A stretch of DNA of 23,461 bases from a virus. The DNA lies in the IMG/VR virus record IMGVR_UViG_3300012920_000274, positions 1 to 23,461 of that record. The stretch is one strand, 5' to 3'. Positions 1,704-22,701 of the stretch are shown piece after piece. Under the pieces are notes generated by a model. The model was not told where the DNA came from. It did not search any database and worked only from the letters and a program-made list of their open reading frames with translations. How positions within the stretch are numbered: position 1 is the stretch's first letter; every line of letters begins with the position of its first letter. A program made the position numbers and the translations under genes.

Positions 1704-4700
1704 TCAGTAAATCGCGCTTCCGTTGCTGTATGTGCCAGTCATGCCCTTAGCAGTCATAGCAGAAATCGTCGCTGAGTCCAAAAGCTCTGTAGTGCCATTA
1801 AGAGGGATTTTGCCAATGCTAAGACCAGATGGAGTGTTTGCATTAGCACACCAGCCCTGAATAGTGGTGTCTAGATTTGCCTTTGACATTGCGGTACCGT
1901 CAAACATTGAGGCTATGTTTGTAACGCTACTTAAATCCCAAGAGCTCAAGTCCTGGTTAAAGGCGTCGGCGCTCAAGAACATGTTTATCATGTTTGTCAC
2001 GCTAGAAGTATCCCAGTTGCCAATGTCTTGGTTGAAGGCGTTGGCGCCTGTGAACATAAACTGCATGTCAGTCACATTGGAAGTATCCCAAGAGCCAATG
2101 GGTTGATTGAACGCCTGGCATGCTCTAAACATCTCACCCATATTAACCACCCTAGAGGTGTCCCAGTTGTCTATGCCTGCTGAGCCTCCGTTGTTAAAGA
2201 CCACGCAATTCATAAACATTTCGTGGAGACTGACGTTTGCAGACGGGTCAGTATTCAAGGACCAAGAAGACAGGTCTCTGTCAAACTTAAAACAAGACTT
2301 TAAAAACCTTGCAAAAGAAGTGCTCTTACTTACGTTCCATCCGCTGATGTCTTCATTAAACGTTCCTGCCTGGAAGAACATGTTACTGAAGCTAGTGACA
2401 TTGCCAGTATCCCATCCTCCGACACCTGGACTCCAATCTGGGACATAATTTACACCGTTGGTGTGAGTGTAAGAAAGAACCGAGGGGTCCTCCTCTCCCC
2501 AGTATGAACGCCTAAACTGGCTACTGTTGTAAAACATCTGAGCCATCGAATTAACCTGACTTGTATCCCATCCAGAAAGATCACCTCCTCGACCGTTTTG
2601 ACCATCAAAAAGATGAGGGCAGTTATAAAACATTCCAAACATCCTAACTGGCTCGTTAGTATTGATGGTCCAAGTCCCAACCTCACCGTTAAAAGACCTT
2701 GCATTTTGAAACATTCTATCAAAAGTGGTGACATTAGAGACATCCCAGTTGCTCAGGTCCTGATTAAAGCTGTATGCGCCCTCAAACGTCAGACTCATAT
2801 TTGTCACCTGACTTGTGTCCCAGTTATTTAAAGGTTGGTTAAAATCAACATCTTTTGCGAACATGTTGATAATACTAGTGCAGTTAGACATATCCCAATA
2901 TGTCTGACCTTGATCATCTGTATGGGTGTCAACAGGATTGTTGAAAGGGGTACCATAGAAAAGCCCTCCTGCTGCGAACGAAACAGAAGGCATAATCCAC
3001 TCAGAAACATCTTGATTGAAGCTGGTGCTACGAAACATTTCACTCATGCTGGCGTTTCTAGCCCAGTTTTCACTAGTCCATGAATGTCCTCCGTTGTTGT
3101 ATTCAGAAGCATCTCGGAAAATCCTGTTCGTTGTAATGACATTGGTAAAATCCCAAGTATCTACTCTCTGATTAAAAATATCACATCCGTAGAACATAGA
3201 GGCCATGTCAACTCCGTCAGGGTTGTCTGTGTTTATGACCCACATGTGTACAGGGACATTAAAAGAGTCGCATTGCTGAAACGCACTGTTAAAAGAAACT
3301 ACGCTACTTGTATCCCAATTTTCAACTCCTCCGCCAGTCCAGCTATTTAGACCAGGAAAGGTGGCCCTTAGGCTAGTAACTTTATCCGTTACAAAAGCAG
3401 AGACGTCGGAAGGGTTGAAGTTGTCCATACTGCCAAACATAGTCTGATACTGAACTGTTCTTGTGTCTATAAGGTTGGGATGAGGCTTCCAGTTGGTTAT
3501 TTCGAAATTCGCAGGACAGCTTCCTTGAATTGCGGTTCCATCGGCGTTTACGATGGATGATTGGCTGAACGCTAAGTACTGATTGGAACCAAAGTGCATT
3601 TCAAAACCAAAGTTTGGGGTGGCATTCCACATTCTTCGCATTTGGTTATACAAAGACCCCTGAAGAGGCGCCTGTGATGTGCCCCATTTTGTAAAGTCAC
3701 CCTGAAGGTTTACACACCCAGTAAACACACCTCCTGGCAAATTAGATCCAGGAAATTCTCTGCCAGTTTCGGTTGAGAAGCCTGGCTGTAATTGACCTTT
3801 TATCGTAGGATTTGTCCTCTCTGCTGTAACCTCAAATTTAGGTGGCTCTGTAGCCGTCATAATCCAGTTTGGGCAATCCGCAAAGACACCTAAAGAACTT
3901 GTAGATCCGTCTGGTCTTGGTACCCTAACAAAAGAACAGAGATCCAAAGCAGCATTACCCCAATCCATGATGTTGATAAGCTTCGCACCTTCACGATGGC
4001 CTGTATGCTTGTTAAAGTGAAAGTTCATCCCTGAGAACACTCCGTCAATCCTGATAACAAAAGCTCCAGAATCTTGGTACGTATGAGTGATTTTAGGGTC
4101 GTTCCATTCAGTGATGTAGTCTTCGTTTCCGTCACCCCAAAAAACTTTAAAGTTGTAGTCACCGCCTTCAACTGTAGGTAAGGTATACTGATTTGAAGCA
4201 CTGGATATTACATTTGCTCCAGAAGAAGGTGTGGCACTAGGGAAGGTGGCAATCACCGAAGGAACATTATTTTCGGCTACAGCGTTCGTTAGGACACCAG
4301 GTCTCTTGTAATAGTCGTAATTATCGTAAGTGAGGTTTGTGGTGTTGATCTCAAAGGTAAAAGGATTGAGAGGCCCTAAGGGACACACAAGAGCATCTAC
4401 CTCATGGCTTGAGTTGTCGATAGACACTGAAGACGTTTTGGCGCTGGCGTCGATAGATATGTCTTGAGCCACAGAAGCCAAAGAGGGGTCTATCAGGATC
4501 TCCGCTTTTTGTCTTCCGCCTCCTTGAATACCGTACTGGAGACCTTCATAAATGCCGCTGGTGTAAAAGACATCCCCTTCCGAAACTTCAGTCCTTACCT
4601 GCACAGAGGGTGGTAGTCCAAGCTTGTAAGGAAAGGAGGGTCTAATAGTAGCTCTGTTGTAGTAATCGTAAACCTGTCTGTGCTCTTCCGCAGAAAGTGC

Positions 4701-5798
4701 TTTTTCATAGAAAGCCATTGCGTAAAACTGACCACCAGCGTTACTGTTTAACCTAAGGGTTCCATCGTTGTTGACCACGATACCTGCATGCCAAACGTTG
4801 CTGGAAGATGGGTTTCTCCCTGATCTAACGCTTTGATTTGATATCTCTTGCCCGTTTAAATAGTTGGACACTACAGTGTCGTCAACAGAAAAGGATATAA
4901 TCTGAACGTCGCCAGAGCCAAGACCCGCGTGCCGATCTGAATACATCCATCTTGTGCCGCCTGACACGCCAGTTTCTCCATCGGGGTACAGGTACTTATT
5001 AACGTATGAATTTAAATTAAGATAACCATTTAAGAATGGAACAAGGTTTGGATTTGATCCAGCGTCTGGGTAAGCGTTGTAATAGTTTGTAGCGTACGTG
5101 TAGATGTCGTCCACACCAAAGGTTGTACATAACTGACGTAGGAATTGAAGACCTAGTTGGTTGGGTCGATCAAAAACGCCGTCAGGGGGGTACGAGTAGG
5201 AGGTTACTCTATCTCGGTAGGTGTTGAGCTCGTAATGGGTGCCAAATCGAACACCGCCTCCACCCCTTGTCATAAACTCTGCCCCTGCGGACTCAAGCTG
5301 AACTGTTTGTATATCTTCAGGAGCGCCTACGCCATCTTCAACAAGTCCAATTATGTCCTCAGGACGATGATTGCTCACAGCAACGAGCACTCCAGTAAAA
5401 GAGCTAGGCACGTCGGAAGGCGCACCCCACCTCAGAGCCTTGCCGTCTTGATAAGGCAAACTTATCGCAGTCCCTTGATTGGTGGTTTTTACAAGACCCT
5501 CAGCAGAGGCCAACGCAGAACCAGTGGCCGCGTCAATAATCTGACCGTTGTTTCCATTTCCAGACAGGTCGTTGAACGAAGAACTGACCCCATCGAAACA
5601 TGCAGGGTCCGAAAAGTCGAACCAAAACCTTAAGTCTGATTGAGCAGGAAACTCTACAGGCTCATAAGGCTTCTGATTGAGATAGTCGATCCTATGAAGA
5701 ACCTTTACACTAGCAGACTTGCTGCTATTGTCTATGGAGACAGTAGAAGAGGCTGTAGATAGGTCTACAGATACAGTGTATTCATAGCACTGAGCCAA
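1704..5798 (-). CDS. Giant modular adhesin: LamG, PKD-like domain and BspA-type repeats
   Basis: A 1364-residue protein, probably a tail fibre or receptor-binding protein. In order: a short beta motif with STVSIDNSS (about 15-25); a LamG/concanavalin-like domain (about 55-390, starting DLRFWFDFSDPACFDG and ending ALSAEEHRQVYDYYN); a second SIDNSS motif (about 460); a PKD-like strand set (about 545-605, FKVFWGDGNEDYI and ITHTYQDSGAFVIRIDG); then a long array of BspA/DUF285-type repeats (about 830-1320) built on W-D-x-S-x-V-x-x-M-x-x-M-F followed by FNQ. BspA-type repeats are known in bacterial and protozoan surface adhesins. No ATG is available near the N-terminus; the start is a TTG two bases after the upstream stop. 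No membrane segments are seen. Receptor binding is inferred. Confidence 0.9.
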   Translation of the reverse strand: MAQCYEYTVSVDLSTASSTVSIDNSSKSASVKVLHRIDYLNQKPYEPVEFPAQSDLRFWFDFSDPACFDGVSSSFNDLSGNGNNGQIIDAATGSALASAEGLVKTTNQGTAISLPYQDGKALRWGAPSDVPSSFTGVLVAVSNHRPEDIIGLVEDGVGAPEDIQTVQLESAGAEFMTRGGGGVRFGTHYELNTYRDRVTSYSYPPDGVFDRPNQLGLQFLRQLCTTFGVDDIYTYATNYYNAYPDAGSNPNLVPFLNGYLNLNSYVNKYLYPDGETGVSGGTRWMYSDRHAGLGSGDVQIISFSVDDTVVSNYLNGQEISNQSVRSGRNPSSSNVWHAGIVVNNDGTLRLNSNAGGQFYAMAFYEKALSAEEHRQVYDYYNRATIRPSFPYKLGLPPSVQVRTEVSEGDVFYTSGIYEGLQYGIQGGGRQKAEILIDPSLASVAQDISIDASAKTSSVSIDNSSHEVDALVCPLGPLNPFTFEINTTNLTYDNYDYYKRPGVLTNAVAENNVPSVIATFPSATPSSGANVISSASNQYTLPTVEGGDYNFKVFWGDGNEDYITEWNDPKITHTYQDSGAFVIRIDGVFSGMNFHFNKHTGHREGAKLINIMDWGNAALDLCSFVRVPRPDGSTSSLGVFADCPNWIMTATEPPKFEVTAERTNPTIKGQLQPGFSTETGREFPGSNLPGGVFTGCVNLQGDFTKWGTSQAPLQGSLYNQMRRMWNATPNFGFEMHFGSNQYLAFSQSSIVNADGTAIQGSCPANFEITNWKPHPNLIDTRTVQYQTMFGSMDNFNPSDVSAFVTDKVTSLRATFPGLNSWTGGGVENWDTSSVVSFNSAFQQCDSFNVPVHMWVINTDNPDGVDMASMFYGCDIFNQRVDTWDFTNVITTNRIFRDASEYNNGGHSWTSENWARNASMSEMFRSTSFNQDVSEWIMPSVSFAAGGLFYGTPFNNPVDTHTDDQGQTYWDMSNCTSIINMFAKDVDFNQPLNNWDTSQVTNMSLTFEGAYSFNQDLSNWDVSNVTTFDRMFQNARSFNGEVGTWTINTNEPVRMFGMFYNCPHLFDGQNGRGGDLSGWDTSQVNSMAQMFYNSSQFRRSYWGEEDPSVLSYTHTNGVNYVPDWSPGVGGWDTGNVTSFSNMFFQAGTFNEDISGWNVSKSTSFARFLKSCFKFDRDLSSWSLNTDPSANVSLHEMFMNCVVFNNGGSAGIDNWDTSRVVNMGEMFRACQAFNQPIGSWDTSNVTDMQFMFTGANAFNQDIGNWDTSSVTNMINMFLSADAFNQDLSSWDLSSVTNIASMFDGTAMSKANLDTTIQGWCANANTPSGLSIGKIPLNGTTELLDSATISAMTAKGMTGTYSNGSAIY

Positions 5799-11994: not shown

Positions 11995-11997
11995 ACG

Positions 11998-12005
11998 CAA
12001 ATATA
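11998..12005 (-). promoter_or_regulatory. Candidate -7 promoter box next to a start codon
   Basis: TATATTTG on the minus strand in the short gap after the glycosyltransferase gene, followed by CGT and ATG. No alternative downstream Met exists near the start of the gene, so a transcript from this box would be leaderless. Confidence 0.5.
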
Positions 12006-12006
12006 A

Positions 12007-12858
12007 TCACATCTGATTATTGTATGCTTTGTCGAAGTATTTGATGGTTTCCTTACCCAGCTCTGGCGTCGTTCGGTTGATCGTGCCTAGAGGCTGAACG
12101 TTTGAGTTCTGAGTGTTTACGTCAAGAACATGTGTAGCCATCTTATCTTGTAAAGGAGACTTATCAAAGGATGCAACGACAATACCGATGCCCTTCTCAG
12201 AGAGATATCCACTCAAGAAGATGTCGTCTACAAAGAAGGCTGACACCTCTGGGAAGTCTTCGTTTTCAGACTTGTAGTCGAACACATCGTGATCAAAGTA
12301 AGAGGGTCTATACGCCACCGCTCCAGTACCGAAGAGAACGTCGACGCGCTTTACGCTAGACTCATCAGCCCCGCTGTAGATGCGCTCAAGGATCCCGTTG
12401 TTCTTGTCTGTGTGGAAGGGGTGGTCTTCATCAACCATGTAGATACGAGACCCCTTTCTGCACACCACAACGCCACATTCGATGAGGTCTGATGATAGTA
12501 GATTGGTGATCGTGTCGGCATTATACCTCTTGTCGTCATCAAAAGTAATGATGATGGGCTCCCTGTCCTCCGTGTAGTCAAGGTCGATCTCTCTTTTCAG
12601 GACGCCAAGAATCTTCGTGGCAGGACCATAGTCTTCATCGCAGTGAAGGAGGGTGATCTTTCCTTCGTCTGACAGCTTCTTGACTTCGTCGCTTAACTCG
12701 TAGTCCTTCTCCTCTCTAATTGAGTGAGTAGGGATAGAGAGTACAACCTCGTCAGGCTTGATGGTTTGATTAAGGATGGATTCGATCGTGACATGGACGT
12801 GCTCCATTCTCGACGGGATGGTGGTCAACGTGGCGATGACCTTTCTTTTGTTGTGCAT
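12007..12858 (-). CDS. Glycosyltransferase, GT-A fold (family 2-like)
   Basis: A protein of 283 residues from the chosen start. It opens with the nucleotide-binding strand KVIATLTTIPSR, continues with SILNQTIKPDEVVLSIP, and has an acidic metal-binding motif in PIIITFDDDKRYN (DxD type), then VLFGTGAVAYRPSYFD and FVDDIFLSGYL, where the second DD is the likely acceptor/catalytic site. These are the ordered motifs of inverting GT-A transferases; the sugar and acceptor are unknown. It may modify virion proteins, phage DNA or host surface glycans. The frame opens at an ATG at 12912, but ATG 12858 is preferred because it puts the first strand near the N-terminus and has the A/T-rich leader seen elsewhere. 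Confidence 0.82.
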   Translation of the reverse strand: MHNKRKVIATLTTIPSRMEHVHVTIESILNQTIKPDEVVLSIPTHSIREEKDYELSDEVKKLSDEGKITLLHCDEDYGPATKILGVLKREIDLDYTEDREPIIITFDDDKRYNADTITNLLSSDLIECGVVVCRKGSRIYMVDEDHPFHTDKNNGILERIYSGADESSVKRVDVLFGTGAVAYRPSYFDHDVFDYKSENEDFPEVSAFFVDDIFLSGYLSEKGIGIVVASFDKSPLQDKMATHVLDVNTQNSNVQPLGTINRTTPELGKETIKYFDKAYNNQM

Positions 12859-12892
12859 TATACTGTATTTAAAAAGTGGCCACATATATGGC

Positions 12893-13036
12893 TTAATCTT
12901 CGAACTCGTCATTCCAGGACTCGTCCCAGAACTTAAAATCTGTCTTATTCATCTGATATACAATCTCTTTCCAGTTATTTAGAGAATCTTTCAGCGAAAC
13001 CTCCGCTATAGTCTTTTGCGTCTTCGATTTCTCCAT
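12893..13036 (-). CDS. Small acidic protein overlapping the previous gene (47 aa)
   Basis: A 47-residue ORF from ATG 13036 to TAA 12893: MEKSKTQKTIAEVSLKDSLN, followed by NWKEIVYQMNKTDFKFWDES and WNDEFED. It overlaps the last 62 bases of the gene at 12975-13265 in another frame. The N-terminus is basic and the C-terminus acidic and Trp-rich, not what a random shadow usually gives. It fills the 116-base stretch between that gene's stop and the chosen glycosyltransferase start. No family is recognised. Confidence 0.6.
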   Translation of the reverse strand: MEKSKTQKTIAEVSLKDSLNNWKEIVYQMNKTDFKFWDESWNDEFED

Positions 13037-13265
13037 TTGTCTGTAGATCTTTGATCATTTGTTCCAACCGCTGTCTTTCGATAATTAGCTCCTTGCAGTC
13101 AGTAGCGGTCTGTTTGATCGACTGCAATTCTGCTTTCCTGGCAGCGCCTCCAGCTTCTGGATCAACAGGCTTCTTCACCTCGTCAATCATGTTGTTGATG
13201 GCTGCCTCCATAGAGATCATGAGGCGCTTCGCCGCCTCTACTGTTGTGAACTTAGGCTTCGGCAT
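12975..13265 (-). CDS. Small helical protein (hypothetical, 96 aa)
   Basis: A 96-residue, mostly helical protein with heptad-like spacing (MISMEAAINNMIDEVKKP, then ELQSIKQTATDCKELIIERQ and RLEQMIKDLQ), so a coiled-coil oligomer is likely. The C-terminus GGFAERFSK is soluble. No enzymatic motif is seen. The start overlaps the end of the GroES-like gene by 14 bases, so the two are likely co-translated. Its role is unknown; scaffold or adaptor is possible. Confidence 0.75.
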   Translation of the reverse strand: MPKPKFTTVEAAKRLMISMEAAINNMIDEVKKPVDPEAGGAARKAELQSIKQTATDCKELIIERQRLEQMIKDLQTNGEIEDAKDYSGGFAERFSK

Positions 13266-13842
13266 AGAGAAGGTCTTCTACTCTTGTTCTGTAGTACTCC
13301 TTTCCATCAATGGTGATGCGATAATCTCTATTCTCCTTGAATCCAACGATGTCACCCTTCTTAGCTCCGATGTCGTGAAGCTCTTGTGAGTCAAATGCAA
13401 CACGGGCCTTTGTGGGGAGCTTCTCTTTAAGGTTGACGATTTCGATAGTATCAGATGATACTTCGTTTTCTTGCTCGACTGGTTCGAGAAGAGCCCAGCC
13501 AAAGAGGGTATGTATGTGTCCACTTTTTTGGCTCTTATATGCGATAGCCTGATTCTGAACAGCGAACTGATCGCTGTAGTTTACGATGTAGTGGTTGTCG
13601 AACCCAGTAAGGACTTGACCTCCTTGCATAACGACAAGGTGATGGAAGTACAGGGTGTCTCCGATCTCCACCCCCGTGTCATACTTGAACGGGGCAGCTA
13701 CGACGGGACCCTCTGTCACTCGATAGTCGAACTCAGAGTTCTCAAACTTTGTCTCAATAAACAATTCAAGACCGCTCTCAGTCTTGATTGTATCGTTAAT
13801 GGGCTTCTCTAGCTCAACAACGAAGAAATTGAATGTCTTCAT
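13252..13842 (-). CDS. Duplicated GroES-like (Cpn10-fold) protein
   Basis: A 196-residue protein that reads as two co-chaperonin-type beta barrels. The first half contains VTEGPVVAAPFKYDTGVEIG, then GDTLYFHHLVV, the G-x-x-V-x-x-P...GD-x-V/L pattern of Cpn10. The second half contains LHDIGAKKGDIVGFKENRDY and YRITIDGKEYYRTRVEDLLY, matching the GroES C-terminal 'GDIV...IDGxEY...R..DIL' strands. Phage co-chaperonins such as T4 Gp31 replace GroES for capsid protein folding; here two barrels seem fused, with a loop of about 25 acidic residues between them. The mobile loop is not clearly recognisable. It is ATGA-coupled to the next gene. Confidence 0.65.
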   Translation of the reverse strand: MKTFNFFVVELEKPINDTIKTESGLELFIETKFENSEFDYRVTEGPVVAAPFKYDTGVEIGDTLYFHHLVVMQGGQVLTGFDNHYIVNYSDQFAVQNQAIAYKSQKSGHIHTLFGWALLEPVEQENEVSSDTIEIVNLKEKLPTKARVAFDSQELHDIGAKKGDIVGFKENRDYRITIDGKEYYRTRVEDLLYAEA

Positions 13843-13997
13843 TTCTTGTACGGGACAGCCTTGTTTAATGCTTCTTTTCTTGCCTTACAGCCACAGTCTT
13901 TGCCTGTTGCTTTCGAGGCTGCATCAACGATGGCCTTGATTCCCGTAGCCTTGGTGATCTTCTCGATAGAGTCACCCAAACCTTTGCTCTTGCTCAT
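13839..13997 (-). CDS. Conserved small phage protein, DCGC type (52 aa)
   Basis: From ATG 13997: MSKSKGLGDSIEKITKATGI, then a basic helical middle and KDCGCKARKEALNKAVPYKK. I recognise the 'SKGLGDxIEKxTxATGI...DCGCxxRKExLN' pattern as a very widespread small protein of marine phages; its function is unknown. The C-x-C pair and basic C-terminus suggest metal or nucleic-acid binding. The frame continues upstream to 14054 but would overlap the previous gene's end, and ATG 13997 has an A/T-rich leader (CTAAAATTTTTAATC). Its stop overlaps the GroES-like gene start. Confidence 0.85.
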   Translation of the reverse strand: MSKSKGLGDSIEKITKATGIKAIVDAASKATGKDCGCKARKEALNKAVPYKK

Positions 13998-14008
13998 GAT
14001 TAAAAATT

Positions 14009-14236
14009 TTAGTCGTATTCGATTAGGCAGGGCATTTCGTTGACAGACTTCCATAGAAGCTGTCCGTCTTCCCTTTGCAAATATACAAGATATCTGCTTT
14101 GATTGTAGCGCACCATTGACTCTTCGTCGTACACGATAGCACTAACCTCACCGCCCCCAGCTCTCATTCCGACGTAATAAGCCATGGCATCCTTAGGATC
14201 TCTCCCAATAACGATTTTTCTAATAACCCCCTCCAC
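14009..14236 (-). CDS. Small conserved phage protein (hypothetical, 75 aa)
   Basis: The recognisable part is IRKIVIGRDPKDAMAYYVGM, a Gly-rich GGGEVSAIVYDE segment, then YLVYLQREDGQLLWKSVNEM and PCLIEYD. It is compact, mixed alpha/beta. The same layout ('RKIVLGxDPKDAxAYxVG...LWKSIxxxPVxxEYD') occurs in environmental phages, without known function. The reading frame is open upstream to 14455, but that part is an out-of-frame shadow of the CxxC gene. Likely starts are GTG 14236, overlapping the previous stop by 17 bases, or ATT 14224. I chose GTG. Confidence 0.7.
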   Translation of the reverse strand: MEGVIRKIVIGRDPKDAMAYYVGMRAGGGEVSAIVYDEESMVRYNQSRYLVYLQREDGQLLWKSVNEMPCLIEYD

Positions 14237-14657
14237 TTGATATATTTGTTTGAGTAGGCGGTGGAGTGTTGTTATTGTTGTTGTTCTGGTTGGAGTATTG
14301 CTGTCTCCGTTGCCTGTTTGACTGAACGTTTCTTTTTCTTCTCTCAGAGAGCAACTTGAAGTTTCTTCTCTTTCTTTCTCCAATCCTGTAGTGGCCCCCA
14401 CTGGTTTTCGTAGAGAACTCAAGAGGCTCTTGAGGCTTTTCCTGGTTAGGGGCAAACTTCAAAATCTTCTCAGACTTGTCTACCCACTTGGCGCACAAGT
14501 ATGAAGGCCTAACCTTTGCGCCCCTCCAGAACTGACATTTGCCACCAGATTTGTAAAAGATGCAGTTGCCGCAGTTTTTTGCGTTCGTAGGGGCCTTCTT
14601 GTAACCTTTTGGAAGGCGACCATCAATAGGCTTCCTGTCTCTGTACTTTCTGGCCAT
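14220..14657 (-). CDS. Cys-cluster protein with Asn/Gln-rich tail
   Basis: A 145-residue basic protein. The N-terminal half has NCGNCIFYKSGGKCQFW and then SYLCAKW, a C-x-x-C...C...C arrangement that should bind zinc or an Fe-S cluster; 'CxxCxF...G.CxxW...V....xCxxW' resembles high-potential iron-sulfur and related small-cluster proteins. The C-terminal 60 residues are low complexity: basic (RRKRNVQSNRQRRQQ), then a run of six Asn, Pro and Gly, so disordered. ATGA overlap couples it to the gene upstream. Function is unknown. Confidence 0.75.
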   Translation of the reverse strand: MARKYRDRKPIDGRLPKGYKKAPTNAKNCGNCIFYKSGGKCQFWRGAKVRPSYLCAKWVDKSEKILKFAPNQEKPQEPLEFSTKTSGGHYRIGERKRRNFKLLSERRKRNVQSNRQRRQQYSNQNNNNNNTPPPTQTNISSGGGY

Positions 14658-20047: not shown

Positions 20048-20367
20048 CTATTCTCGCGCCATAAAGAAAAAGGATTCATCTGTGTACACACAAAAACCAT
20101 CTTTGGGTGCTTAATCACATCTGAATCGCTTCGATGCCGTAAAGGTATAAAGGAAAATTTAAAAAGTCAAGACTGAAGTGCCACTTTATAGGAAGGCTTC
20201 CAAGTTGTTGTAAACGAAGGTGTTACATGTTTTTGCGAGATTTGCATCTCGAAGTCAATCTGATCAAGAGCAGCGAAAAAATGGGTGAGTCATATAGAGG
20301 GTGGGGATTATACGTACTTGTACACGTGCAGACGCGCACACCAAAACGAAGTTTTTGACCCCCCTCC
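20048..20367. other. Divergent intergenic region, left part
   Basis: Between the minus-strand block and the plus-strand genes. It holds a possible leftward promoter (20144-20170), one short hairpin (CGAGAT at 20236-20241, TTGC loop, ATCTCG), GTAC/TGCAC-type small palindromes near 20310-20340, and a 43-codon plus-strand ORF at 20227-20358 that I do not accept as a gene. Nothing else is recognised. Confidence 0.5.
20144..20170 (-). promoter_or_regulatory. Possible leftward promoter of the right-hand minus operon
   Basis: On the minus strand: TTGACT (20165-20170), 15-base AT-rich spacer, TATACC (20144-20149) followed by TTTA. It combines a TTG-type upstream element with a TAnnCCTTTA-like -7 region and points at the gene starting at 20035, leaving a leader of about 100 bases. 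Confidence 0.35.
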
Positions 20368-20369
20368 CT

Positions 20370-20761
20370 CAACTATCTTCGATAGTTGCGCAAAACATTT
20401 GACCTTTTGTAACTTGTTACAAGTCAGCAGGTTAAGTGGCTCTACTTTCAGTAGAGGTTGAGAGGCAGGGAAGTACCCGAAGGGTAAGCAGTCATACCGA
20501 ACTAGCTGACAATCACCTCCTTACTCTAACAGGGTTAGAGTATAACCCCAAACCGAATGGACACTGAACCATTGGCAGAGCGGTGCAAGGCAGGGGAGAC
20601 GCAGGAAGCGGAGCTACGCAGGACTCCCGAGATTCCCTCCAAACTACTCTACCCAAGGGTAGAGTAAGAAGCTGCCAAAGTAGAGTTGTAGAGAAGTAAG
20701 AGAGAGGAGTCTACGACTCTCTTACTTCTCTACTAACTCCTAAGGGTCGAGAGTCGCCCTT
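20370..20761 (+). ncRNA. Structured leader: chain of short perfect hairpins
   Basis: A 390-base non-coding stretch ahead of the gene at 20791. Perfect stems in order: CAACTATC-TTC-GATAGTTG (20370-20388); TTGTAAC/GTTACAA (20407-20422); CTCTACT-TTC-AGTAGAG (20440-20456); TACCC-GAA-GGGTA (20474-20486); TACTCTAAC-AGG-GTTAGAGTA (20522-20542, 9 bp); AATGG/CCATT (20556-20573); a larger GGGAG/CTCCC stem (20594-20628); TACTCTACCC/GGGTAGAGTA (20645-20666, 10 bp); a 17-bp stem (20688-20733); and AAGGG(T)CGA-GAG-TCGCCCTT (20742-20761). I recognise no named RNA class. A long structured 5' UTR is the simplest reading; a role as a folded DNA site, such as a replication origin, is also possible. Confidence 0.7.
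20688..20733. repeat. 17-bp perfect inverted repeat
   Basis: GTAGAGAAGTAAGAGAG (20688-20704) and its exact complement (20717-20733) flank a 12-base loop that itself can form GAGTC-TAC-GACTC with part of the 3' arm. The 15-mer GGAGTCTACGACTCT in this loop region (20706-20720) reappears inside the coding sequence at 21246-21260. It lacks a T-run, so it is not a standard terminator. Confidence 0.9.
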
Positions 20762-20767
20762 CGGAGG

Positions 20768-20784
20768 TCAAACTTCAAACTTCA
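20768..20784 (+). promoter_or_regulatory. CAAACTT-repeat translation leader (copy 1)
   Basis: TCAAACTTCAAACTTCA, 6 bases before the ATG at 20791. Near-identical leaders precede three other genes here (21538, 22107, 22702). No Shine-Dalgarno is present, so this A/C/T motif probably acts as the ribosome loading site. Confidence 0.6.
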
Positions 20785-20790
20785 TCTACG

Positions 20791-21312
20791 ATGACTGATT
20801 TCAATTTCTCAGACTGCCGTAAGGCAGTGAACCAAGCTTCCTTCCGTCCAACCAAGAGCCGTAAGGCTCTTGCTGTCAAGCTTCTTTCAGAAGCTTTGGA
20901 CTTCATCAACAACCTCGATGAGGTTGTCGACAAGCCTTCGAAGAAGGCTGGCAAGAAGCGTCGTCGTAAGACGACGAAGCGGACACCTTCACAGAAGGTG
21001 GCAGACCGCCAAGACCGCCAAGCCCTCGCGACCAACGAAGTTGGTCCAATCAAGCCTTCGAAGAAGGCTAAGACAGCTTCCGTTAAGGAAGCTGCAAAGT
21101 CAGCCAAAGCCGTTAGCGAAGCTACTGGAGCTGCTCAAAGAGCAGCCAAGAAAGCTGAGCTGAAAGCTCAATCGGAGACTGCTGACAAAGTAGCTTCTTT
21201 GGAAGCTAAAATCGAGGCTCTCACCGCAGTGCTCGCTGTGCACATGGAGTCTACGACTCTGCCGACCCCTTCCAACGAAGTTGGGTTGGATGAAGTACCT
21301 TTCCAAGTCTAA
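20791..21312 (+). CDS. Lys/Ala-rich protein encoded by a hairpin-filled mRNA
   Basis: A 173-residue protein. The N-terminal 50 residues are a helical segment (KALAVKLLSEALDFINNLDE), then a strongly basic stretch (KKAGKKRRRKTTKRTPSQKV), an Ala/Lys helical region and a coiled coil near the C-terminus (ADKVASLEAKIEALTAVLAV). Nucleic-acid binding and oligomerisation are inferred; no family recognised. The striking feature is the coding sequence: about sixteen perfect hairpins of 4-8 bp with mostly 3-5-base loops, one every ~30 bases (see findings). The peptide blocks PSKKA and NEVG are encoded twice by the same hairpin. The start is ATG 20791 after the CAAACTT leader. It is the first gene of the plus-strand block. 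Confidence 0.9.
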   Translation: MTDFNFSDCRKAVNQASFRPTKSRKALAVKLLSEALDFINNLDEVVDKPSKKAGKKRRRKTTKRTPSQKVADRQDRQALATNEVGPIKPSKKAKTASVKEAAKSAKAVSEATGAAQRAAKKAELKAQSETADKVASLEAKIEALTAVLAVHMESTTLPTPSNEVGLDEVPFQV

Positions 21313-21336
21313 CCCTTTGGGTTAGTTGTCTAACTC
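21309..21336 (+). promoter_or_regulatory. Two mutually exclusive hairpins at the stop codon
   Basis: CTAACCC (21309-21315), TTT, GGGTTAG (21319-21325) form a 7-bp hairpin that includes the stop codon of the preceding gene. The same GGGTTAG can instead pair with CTAACTC (21330-21336) across a TTGT loop using one G-T pair. The two folds compete, as in attenuators. There is no T-run. Confidence 0.55.
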
Positions 21337-21337
21337 T

Positions 21338-21356
21338 AATTCATTGAAAATGAATT
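21338..21356 (+). promoter_or_regulatory. Hairpin sequestering a start codon
   Basis: AATTCATT (21338-21345), loop GAA, AATGAATT (21349-21356): a perfect 8-bp stem whose 3' arm contains the ATG of the gene at 21350. It should limit access to the start unless opened, for example by ribosomes ending at 21312 or by the switch just upstream. Confidence 0.7.
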
Positions 21357-21470: not shown

Positions 21471-21533
21471 GAGAGTTCCAGTATATACACTCTCTCTGAA
21501 CGTAGTGAAGAGAGTGTATATACGGAACCTCTC
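21471..21533 (+). repeat. Conserved 5' UTR stem-loop, copy 1
   Basis: Nested stem: GAGAG/CTCTC outer helix, TTCC/GGAA helix, unpaired A480 on the 5' side and C528 on the 3' side (offset 21000), then the 15-bp helix GTATATACACTCTCT/AGAGAGTGTATATAC and the 13-base loop CTGAACGTAGTGA. The second copy is at 22635-22697. Four base pairs differ between copies and each change is compensated, while both bulges and the loop are identical. It sits 27 bases before the ATG at 21560. Confidence 0.93.
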
Positions 21534-21537
21534 AATG

Positions 21538-21701: not shown

Positions 21702-21812
21702 ATGGACACGAAGCCTTGCTCCATCTGCCTTGCAGACTTTGTGCCCACCGACGAAAGTGCGGAAAGCAGGCACACCTGCGAAGAATGCCAACAGGCATTT
21801 CAGGCACACTGA
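21702..21812 (+). CDS. Mini zinc-finger protein (36 aa)
   Basis: MDTKPCSICLADFVPTDESA, then ESRHTCEECQQAFQAH. The C-x-x-C...C-x-x-C arrangement (Cys 6, 9, 26, 29) is a clear zinc-knuckle or ribbon pattern, and His24/His36 are near. Such tiny proteins often work as phage inhibitors or adaptors of host enzymes (inference). Its TGA stop is part of the hammerhead ribozyme core (CTGACGA), so translation termination and ribozyme folding use the same bases. Two short hairpins lie in the coding sequence (GCAGG-CACA-CCTGC at 21766; AATGCC-AACA-GGCATT at 21784). Confidence 0.75.
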   Translation: MDTKPCSICLADFVPTDESAESRHTCEECQQAFQAH

Positions 21813-21968
21813 CGAGTCCTGAATGGACGAAACATCTCGGCAATATGTGGACGGACAATCCGCGTGAAGCACTTGTCAAGGTAGCACCCTGACCTGACCT
21901 TTGGTCGAATAGGGGGTAGACAAGTGTGAAGCACGTTGGCAGAGCCAATGAACCGAGGTGTCTGTGTC
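21803..21968 (+). ncRNA. Hammerhead ribozyme (stem I open, large insert in stem III)
   Basis: All conserved core bases are present. Stem I: GGCACA (21803-21808) with TGTGTC (21963-21968). Core CTGACGA (21809-21815). Stem II: GTCC-TGAAT-GGAC (21816-21828). GAAA (21829-21832), whose last A pairs with U21961. Stem III: ACATCTCGG (21832-21840) with CCGAGGTGT (21953-21961), 9 bp with one G-U. The cleavage-site triplet is GUC (21960-21962), so cleavage is predicted after C21962. Stem III is capped by a 112-base insert instead of a short loop. The insert has its own helices: CGGA-CAA-TCCG (21852-21862), CACTTGTC/GACAAGTG (21870-21877 with 21919-21926), GACC-TTT-GGTC (21896-21906) and CGTTGGC-AGA-GCCAATG (21934-21950). 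Cleavage would separate the upstream mRNA from the tRNA-like element and the gene at 22130. Confidence 0.85.
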
Positions 21969-22002: not shown

Positions 22003-22100
22003 AGCCGCATGGTGTAACGGAAAGCACGCCATTGTGTGGACGAACGACAGCGCAAGTCGCCACGCAGTGGAGGAGCAGGTTCGAATCCTGTCTGCGGCTC
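22003..22100 (+). ncRNA. tRNA-like element with extended anticodon arm
   Basis: The fold has acceptor AGCCGCA (22003-22009) with TGCGGCT (22093-22099), T8, D stem GTGT/GCAC (22012-22027) with a loop containing GG, and T arm GCAGG-TTCGAAT-CCTGT (22075-22091) with the canonical loop. The anticodon stem CCATT/AGTGG (22029-22033, 22066-22070) does not enclose 7 bases but 32. These continue the helix (GTGTGG/CCACGC), making 11 bp, and end in CGAC-AGCGCAA-GTCG. One extra C (22092) lies between T stem and acceptor, and CCA is not encoded. So it is either a tRNA mimic or a tRNA with a 25-base insert in the anticodon loop; removing it could leave U33-GUG (His), which is speculation. Two hairpins precede it (21967-21987, 21989-21999). 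Confidence 0.6.
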
Positions 22101-22634: not shown

Positions 22635-22697
22635 GAGAGTGTTAGTATATATACTCTCTCTGAACGTAGTGAAGAGAGTATATATACAACACCTCTC
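22635..22697 (+). repeat. Conserved 5' UTR stem-loop, copy 2
   Basis: Same architecture as 21471-21533: GAGAG/CTCTC, TGTT/AACA, unpaired A and C at the same places, the 15-bp helix GTATATATACTCTCT/AGAGAGTATATATAC and an identical 13-base loop. Differences from copy 1 are paired changes (T-A to G-C, two C-G to T-A in the lower helix, one C-G to T-A in the upper helix). Confidence 0.93.
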
Positions 22698-22701
22698 AAT
22701 G

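Follow-up and report, generated by a model that had tools for sequence, protein, structure and literature searches.

The window analysed here is an IMG/VR virus record of 23,461 bases, in which a dense array of hairpins lies near the right end, at the point where the genes diverge. The left 20 kb carries mostly leftward genes, including those for the portal, terminase, endolysin and transglycosylase, and small rightward genes occupy the right end. A 1,364-amino-acid protein with DUF285 repeats, encoded among the structural genes (positions 1704–5798, minus strand), is possibly a host-recognition protein. The terminase is 39–46% identical to its best matches among deposited phages, which are a Manatee Spring podovirus-like genome, Maribacter phage Panino and Flavobacterium elemo phages. 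The hosts are probably marine Bacteroidota, judging solely from these phage relatives; bacterial genomes were searched for a host link and no homologue was found. In a related 65-kb genome (G008), two encoded proteins (L068, positions 11996–14631), one a peptidase M43 protein and the other carrying a CHU_C type IX secretion signal domain, hint at a Bacteroidota host. All loci are metagenome assemblies, and the phages are known without an isolate. The features of the divergent region of the window are as follows.

20048–20301, unstranded: left part of the divergent intergenic region, free of the array, with one hairpin at 20236.
20302–20316, plus strand: conserved box TGGGGATTATACGTA, which in most loci precedes the array; here the array begins about 45 nt downstream.
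20342–20790, plus strand: leader part of the array, from an inverted-repeat scan and comparison with relatives.
20370–20388, 20407–20422, 20440–20456, 20522–20542 and 20645–20666, plus strand: leader hairpins.
20683–20740, plus strand: long hairpin of about 22 bp just upstream of ORF1, from sequence and fold.
20791–21312, plus strand: ORF1, encoding a basic, Lys/Ala-rich protein of 173 amino acids, with 11–12 hairpins in the coding sequence, from codon alignment and shuffles.
20813–20828, 20853–20872, 20878–20896, 20909–20927, 20933–20949 and 20959–20976, plus strand: hairpins in ORF1.
20984–21000, 21030–21046, 21053–21069, 21074–21094, 21130–21146, 21156–21170 and 21191–21208, plus strand: further hairpins in ORF1.
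21309–21356, plus strand: last hairpins of the dense part, CTAACCC-ttt-GGGTTAG and AATTCATT-gaa-AATGAATT, from the inverted-repeat scan.

Several other structured elements accompany the array. Hairpins of at least 20 bp stand just upstream of early genes at 20683–20740, 21471–21535 and 22635–22699, the last two having a common top, CTGAACGTAGTGAAG, and all three are reminiscent of the RNase III sites that lie between genes in early mRNAs of the T7 type. At several early genes a start-codon hairpin of the form TTCATC-NNN-GATGAA or TTCATT-NNN-AATGAA carries the start codon in its 3′ arm; it is found at 20784–20795 in the window, and in the leaders and downstream genes of relatives. A tRNA-like element on the plus strand (22004–22099) has an acceptor stem, a T arm and an anticodon loop of about 32 nt, which may contain an intron or an extended arm; it scored 28.3 against the Rfam tRNA model, for which the gathering score is 29, and was not called by ARAGORN. 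The sequence CTGACGAGTCCTGAATGGACGAAAC (21809–21833) resembles the core of a hammerhead ribozyme, a likeness that may be due to chance; it gave no Rfam hammerhead match, even at relaxed thresholds.

Between 20370 and 21356, 17 perfect inverted repeats with arms of at least 7 bp and loops of 3–5 nt were counted, in good agreement with the sixteen of the initial annotation. With arms of at least 6 bp and loops of 3–8 nt there are 21 non-overlapping perfect repeats, and the earlier total of at least 25 is reached only if 5-bp arms are included. The left 20 kb, which had been described as showing nothing comparable, indeed holds only 12 repeats with arms of at least 7 bp (loops of 3–8 nt), or 0–2 per kb, whereas the two kilobases that span the array hold 10 and 8. 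The array is present at 20370, where it had been said to start, but its onset lies somewhat earlier, about 45 nt past the box at 20302–20316; since 20048–20301 is without the array, this onset is sharp and one-sided. ORF1 contains 11 hairpins, compared with a mean of 0.93 and a maximum of 3 in 200 synonymous-codon shuffles, which preserve the protein and the codon usage, and in a set of 500 codon shuffles the observed count was reached in 0/500 at arms of at least 5, 6 and 7 bp. Same-codon shuffling, which had been named beforehand as a challenge to the array, thus does not reproduce its hairpin density. The chance rate in the Lys/Ala-rich ORF1 is about 1 per 519 bases, which is far under the observed density, although the figure of 0.2 per kb given originally was too low.

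Relatives of ORF1 are encoded by 64 viral contigs. ORF1 is a genuine coding frame, because indels occur in multiples of three and stretches of the protein are conserved. Searches of Pfam, PHROG and PDB gave no match to the family, and no homologue was present in the phage collection; by sequence comparison, ORF1 is a member of a putative protein family that has not been described. Its predicted structure (mean pLDDT 75, pTM 0.28) combines a pair of N-terminal helices with a long helical stretch and has no match in the PDB. The observed number of hairpins exceeded the shuffle mean in 61 of 61 loci (60 fetched loci and the window) and nearly all loci beat every shuffle, these counts coming from kindred loci that are phylogenetically non-independent. 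In the main clade, leaders contain 4–9 hairpins per 480-nt leader, compared with about 0.2 in dinucleotide shuffles, and the ORF contains 9–25 perfect repeats with arms of at least 7 bp per kb in nearly all members. In a distant clade the repeats are fewer, shorter and of different sequence. Free loss of the palindromes among homologues, the second challenge raised initially, is seen in part: they are kept within the clade, but are few or missing in L054, G018 and G020, outlying relatives that each have a relative of ORF1.

The position of the array follows the box rather than the gene. The box TGGGGATTATA precedes the array in most loci and occurs once in each of three genomes searched; GGGGATTATA is present in one copy each in the window, G008, L025 and L004. 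Averaged over 50 loci, there are 0.1–0.3 hairpins per 250 bases to the left of the box; across it the mean rises from 0.24 to 3.3 per 250 bases, reaches a peak of 5.5 at 500–750 bases and returns to baseline by about 2 kb. The array, with its peak 0.5–1 kb downstream of the box, occurs on the downstream side only, and the 65-kb genome G008 has no second cluster of this kind. In G034, which is related through its terminase, the box and the ORF1 homologue are separated by a pair of unrelated genes, ORF X and ORF Y. ORF X contains 11 hairpins, compared with 1.00 in codon shuffles, and ORF Y contains 5, compared with 0.36 (0/500 shuffles reach the observed count in each case); the displaced ORF1 homologue contains 5, compared with 0.57 in shuffles, and the two genes beyond it contain zero at arms of at least 6 bp. 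The array is therefore a derived feature that belongs to one clade and depends on the distance from the box, not on the gene. It is non-essential in the wider phage group, because in L054, G018, G020 and G022 the box is accompanied by few array hairpins or none. Furthermore, both box and array are absent from G019, G021 and G023, and the array is absent from the known terminase-related phages MW202828, elemoA and Panino. We infer that the box is a replication origin or an early promoter; GC skew showed no clear switch or origin at the box, and a scan for host-type promoters gave no match.

The geometry of the hairpins bears on the question of whether they fold as DNA or as RNA. Among 239 unique leader hairpins, 66 have 2-nt loops and 136 have 3-nt loops (202/239 together), whereas the loop sizes of control hairpins are evenly spread over 2–10 nt. 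The closing pairs are CG in 139, TA in 76, GC in 15 and AT in 9, so that 215 of the 239 are closed by 5′-C..G or T..A, and the controls are without such a bias. In addition, the two end bases are complementary, almost always as C..G or T..A, in 88 of 111 leader tetraloops, which are thus effectively 2-nt loops. Loops of 2 nt closed by a 5′-pyrimidine and a 3′-purine fit DNA, the minimum loop in RNA being three, an argument that draws in part on what is generally known about loops in nucleic acids. A DNA-like signature of stems of 6–9 bp, loops of 2–3 nt and a 5′-Y/R-3′ closing pair is supported by these observations. The few loop classes described in the initial annotation do not hold: loops are set by size (2–3 nt) and closing pair, and their sequence is hypervariable across relatives.

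A function in RNA is nevertheless conceivable, in which the 5′ 1–2 kb of the first early transcript would fold into a series of RNA hairpins that shields the message, prevents R-loops or serves as the target of an RNA-binding protein, possibly the basic ORF1 product itself, with template switching merely supplying the hairpins. Template switching can indeed supply RNA hairpins as well (PMC8794818). The array is one-sided, extending toward the early genes soon after a promoter-like box, RNA folding of ORF1 gives a z-score of about −7 relative to codon shuffles, and GTAA and GAAA loops of the GNRA type occur in the ORFs, all of which would be in keeping with this possibility. However, the sense and antisense strands give equally stable folds, and at homologous stems there is, in small numbers, no excess of G.T over A.C, and hence no enrichment of G.U (one-defect haplotypes: GT 3, AC 5, with neither in the stem interior). 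Likewise, the tolerated and covarying G.U pairs of structured RNA stems were not found, again in small numbers. Effectively 2-nt loops with complementary ends are, from general knowledge, unexpected in RNA, and start codons are buried by the conserved hairpin TTCATC-TAC-GATGAA. The Rfam 15 covariance models, applied to the window, to its right end at relaxed thresholds and to eight relatives, gave no match at the gathering score over the array. An RNA function is consequently judged rather unlikely. Where RNA or single-stranded DNA shape had been proposed as the cause, the 2–3-nt loops, the Y/R closing pairs and the lack of a G.U excess favour the DNA level and disfavour a folded mRNA; a replication role is plausible.

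The manner in which stems and loops change was compared among relatives. At homologous sites hairpins are mostly either perfect or lost, and the rare one-defect haplotypes have their defect mainly at the stem end, with only two in the interior. In leaders, the changed stems of 17 close pairs comprise 13 compensatory and 3 broken cases with 0 G.T intermediates; in ORFs, 17 close pairs gave 7 compensatory, 16 broken and 1 G.T, an excess of broken stems as expected if protein constraint interferes. The window and L008 differ by one compensatory pair, with 80 flanking nt identical. Such frequent compensatory change with few intermediates would, on population-genetic grounds, be hard to reach by stepwise mutation. 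Loops that differ as reverse complements on the same stem number 11 in leaders, compared with 5.0 in permutations (p = 0.005), and 6 in ORFs, compared with 2.9 (p = 0.035), where the p values ignore phylogeny. Homogenization of arms and inversion of spacers are documented footprints of template switching (PMC8604942, PMC8794818), and the concerted change, together with the replacement and inversion of loops, matches template switching on DNA fold-backs combined with stem conservation. The repeated templated-palindrome formation initially listed among the possible causes gains support from these changes.

Divergence in the leaders is.054 in stems,.094 in the background and.221 in loops, and at third codon positions it is.070 in stems and.163 outside them; in upstream controls (stems.0995, background.0863) there is no slowdown of stems. 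Stems evolve at about half, and loops at about twice, the rate of their surroundings. Conversion by itself would not be expected to make stems evolve more slowly, which points to some selection on foldability. In a further alternative, the array would be a neutral mutational zone where frequent template switching in post-initiation single-stranded DNA leaves palindromes devoid of function, in parallel with a proposal for nematomorph mitochondrial coding palindromes. The gene-independent profile that decays with distance, the concerted change of arms and inversion of loops, and the near absence of the array from some related phages are readily accommodated by neutrality, as is a 2-nt insertion in L040, possibly a sequencing error, that lengthens a stem yet truncates ORF1. 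However, the slow stems, also at third codon positions, are not expected of conversion alone, and overall divergence in the zone is not much raised (leader background.094 versus.086 upstream). A purely neutral origin is considered unlikely.

Chance, composition or an assembly artefact, for which the low complexity of Lys/Ala coding, the termination of several contigs within ORF1 and a fold-back contig might speak, is ruled out by the shuffles and the independent assemblies, as 61/61 loci from many metagenomes lie above the mean of their own codon shuffles and the unrelated ORF X and ORF Y likewise exceed theirs. The contigs that end inside ORF1 (L039, L041–L044, L051, L052 and L058) do so more often than expected, which suggests that the array disrupts sequencing or assembly. 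The fold-back contig, L013 (1–9750), consists over its whole length of a perfect inverted repeat of 4,875 bp with a leader hairpin at its centre, and is either a chimera from library preparation or assembly or a real fold-back event. A packaging or genome-end structure, the former also suggested initially, was considered since many contigs terminate near or within ORF1, but was rejected: L025, L032 and L036 extend far beyond the region on both sides, and the ends are explained by breaks in assembly.

The preferred reading, to which a probability of roughly one half is assigned, is that the array marks a zone beside an initiation site where the DNA folds back on itself and is homogenized by template switching. 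The box, which separates leftward late genes from rightward early ones, would serve as this initiation site; initiation there would expose one strand, the exposed strand would fold into back-to-back DNA mini-hairpins, and switching of the polymerase template between arms would keep the stems perfect. Any sequence within the first 1–2 kb downstream of the box would in this way be held as perfect mini-hairpins. The phage might benefit in that a hairpin-covered strand would be compact and would offer sites recognized by shape, much like the early promoters of phage N4, which are recognized in the form of extruded DNA hairpins. A position-anchored zone of DNA-type hairpins that changes by concerted steps is supported, whereas we infer the exposure of the strand by initiation and the benefit of folding. 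Somewhat more tentative, and a little below an even chance, is the view that the array is a position-encoded DNA-structure element, in which any gene residing in the 1–2 kb next to the box is turned into, and maintained as, a hairpin tiling that acts by shape alone, with its protein-coding capacity retained.

Known systems resemble parts of this arrangement. In the early region of N4, a podovirus-like phage, the promoters are likewise short hairpins of DNA with loops of 3 nt, and are read by the virion RNA polymerase; in one structure the stem has 7 bp and the loop a sheared G:A pair (PMC4496689). The 136 of 239 leader hairpins with 3-nt loops match these in shape only. However, N4 uses a handful of hairpins in which certain bases are conserved, together with a giant virion RNA polymerase, whereas the array has dozens that are diverse in sequence, and no conserved bases of the N4 type were found in its hypervariable stems and loops. 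An uncalibrated search with PF00940 for a virion RNA polymerase was silent in 9 records, and a 2,618-amino-acid protein lacks the DxDxD motif and matches only PHROGs of unknown function. Template-switched short inverted repeats show the same concerted change of arms, loop inversion (GAA to TTC) and multinucleotide changes (PMC8604942, PMC8794818), but are known as isolated events and not as a whole tiled zone of 1–2 kb; in the array, concerted arm change is evident in leaders (13 versus 3) and less clear in ORFs (7 versus 16), and spacer inversion is evident in both. Nematomorph mitochondrial coding palindromes, for which maintenance by template switching has been proposed, are also perfect repeats within functional coding sequences, with no excess of imperfect ones (PMC6649704). 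They reach 284 bp and are scattered over the mitochondrial genes (PMC6649704), whereas the phage array has stems of 6–9 bp and loops of 2–3 nt in one box-anchored, gene-independent zone per genome of a dsDNA phage. Rickettsia palindromic elements (RPE) and REP sequences are palindromes in or between genes, but they are dispersed copies of a repeat family, whereas the array hairpins are mostly dissimilar and confined to one place per genome, with a single cluster in G008. A search of the open-access literature found no position-anchored, gene-independent hairpin tiling, and none of the families considered has this property.

If the preferred reading is correct, the array would represent a DNA element that is specified by its shape and its distance from a box, not by sequence, and that is imposed on coding genes; it would also show, from a natural case, that mini-hairpins arise in vivo in the DNA of a dsDNA phage. 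Two questions become testable: the extent to which hairpins are built by template switching instead of stepwise compensatory mutation, and whether phages use DNA hairpins other than promoters of the N4 type. It also calls for caution, as a strong RNA-folding z-score in a coding region may stem from processes at the DNA level.
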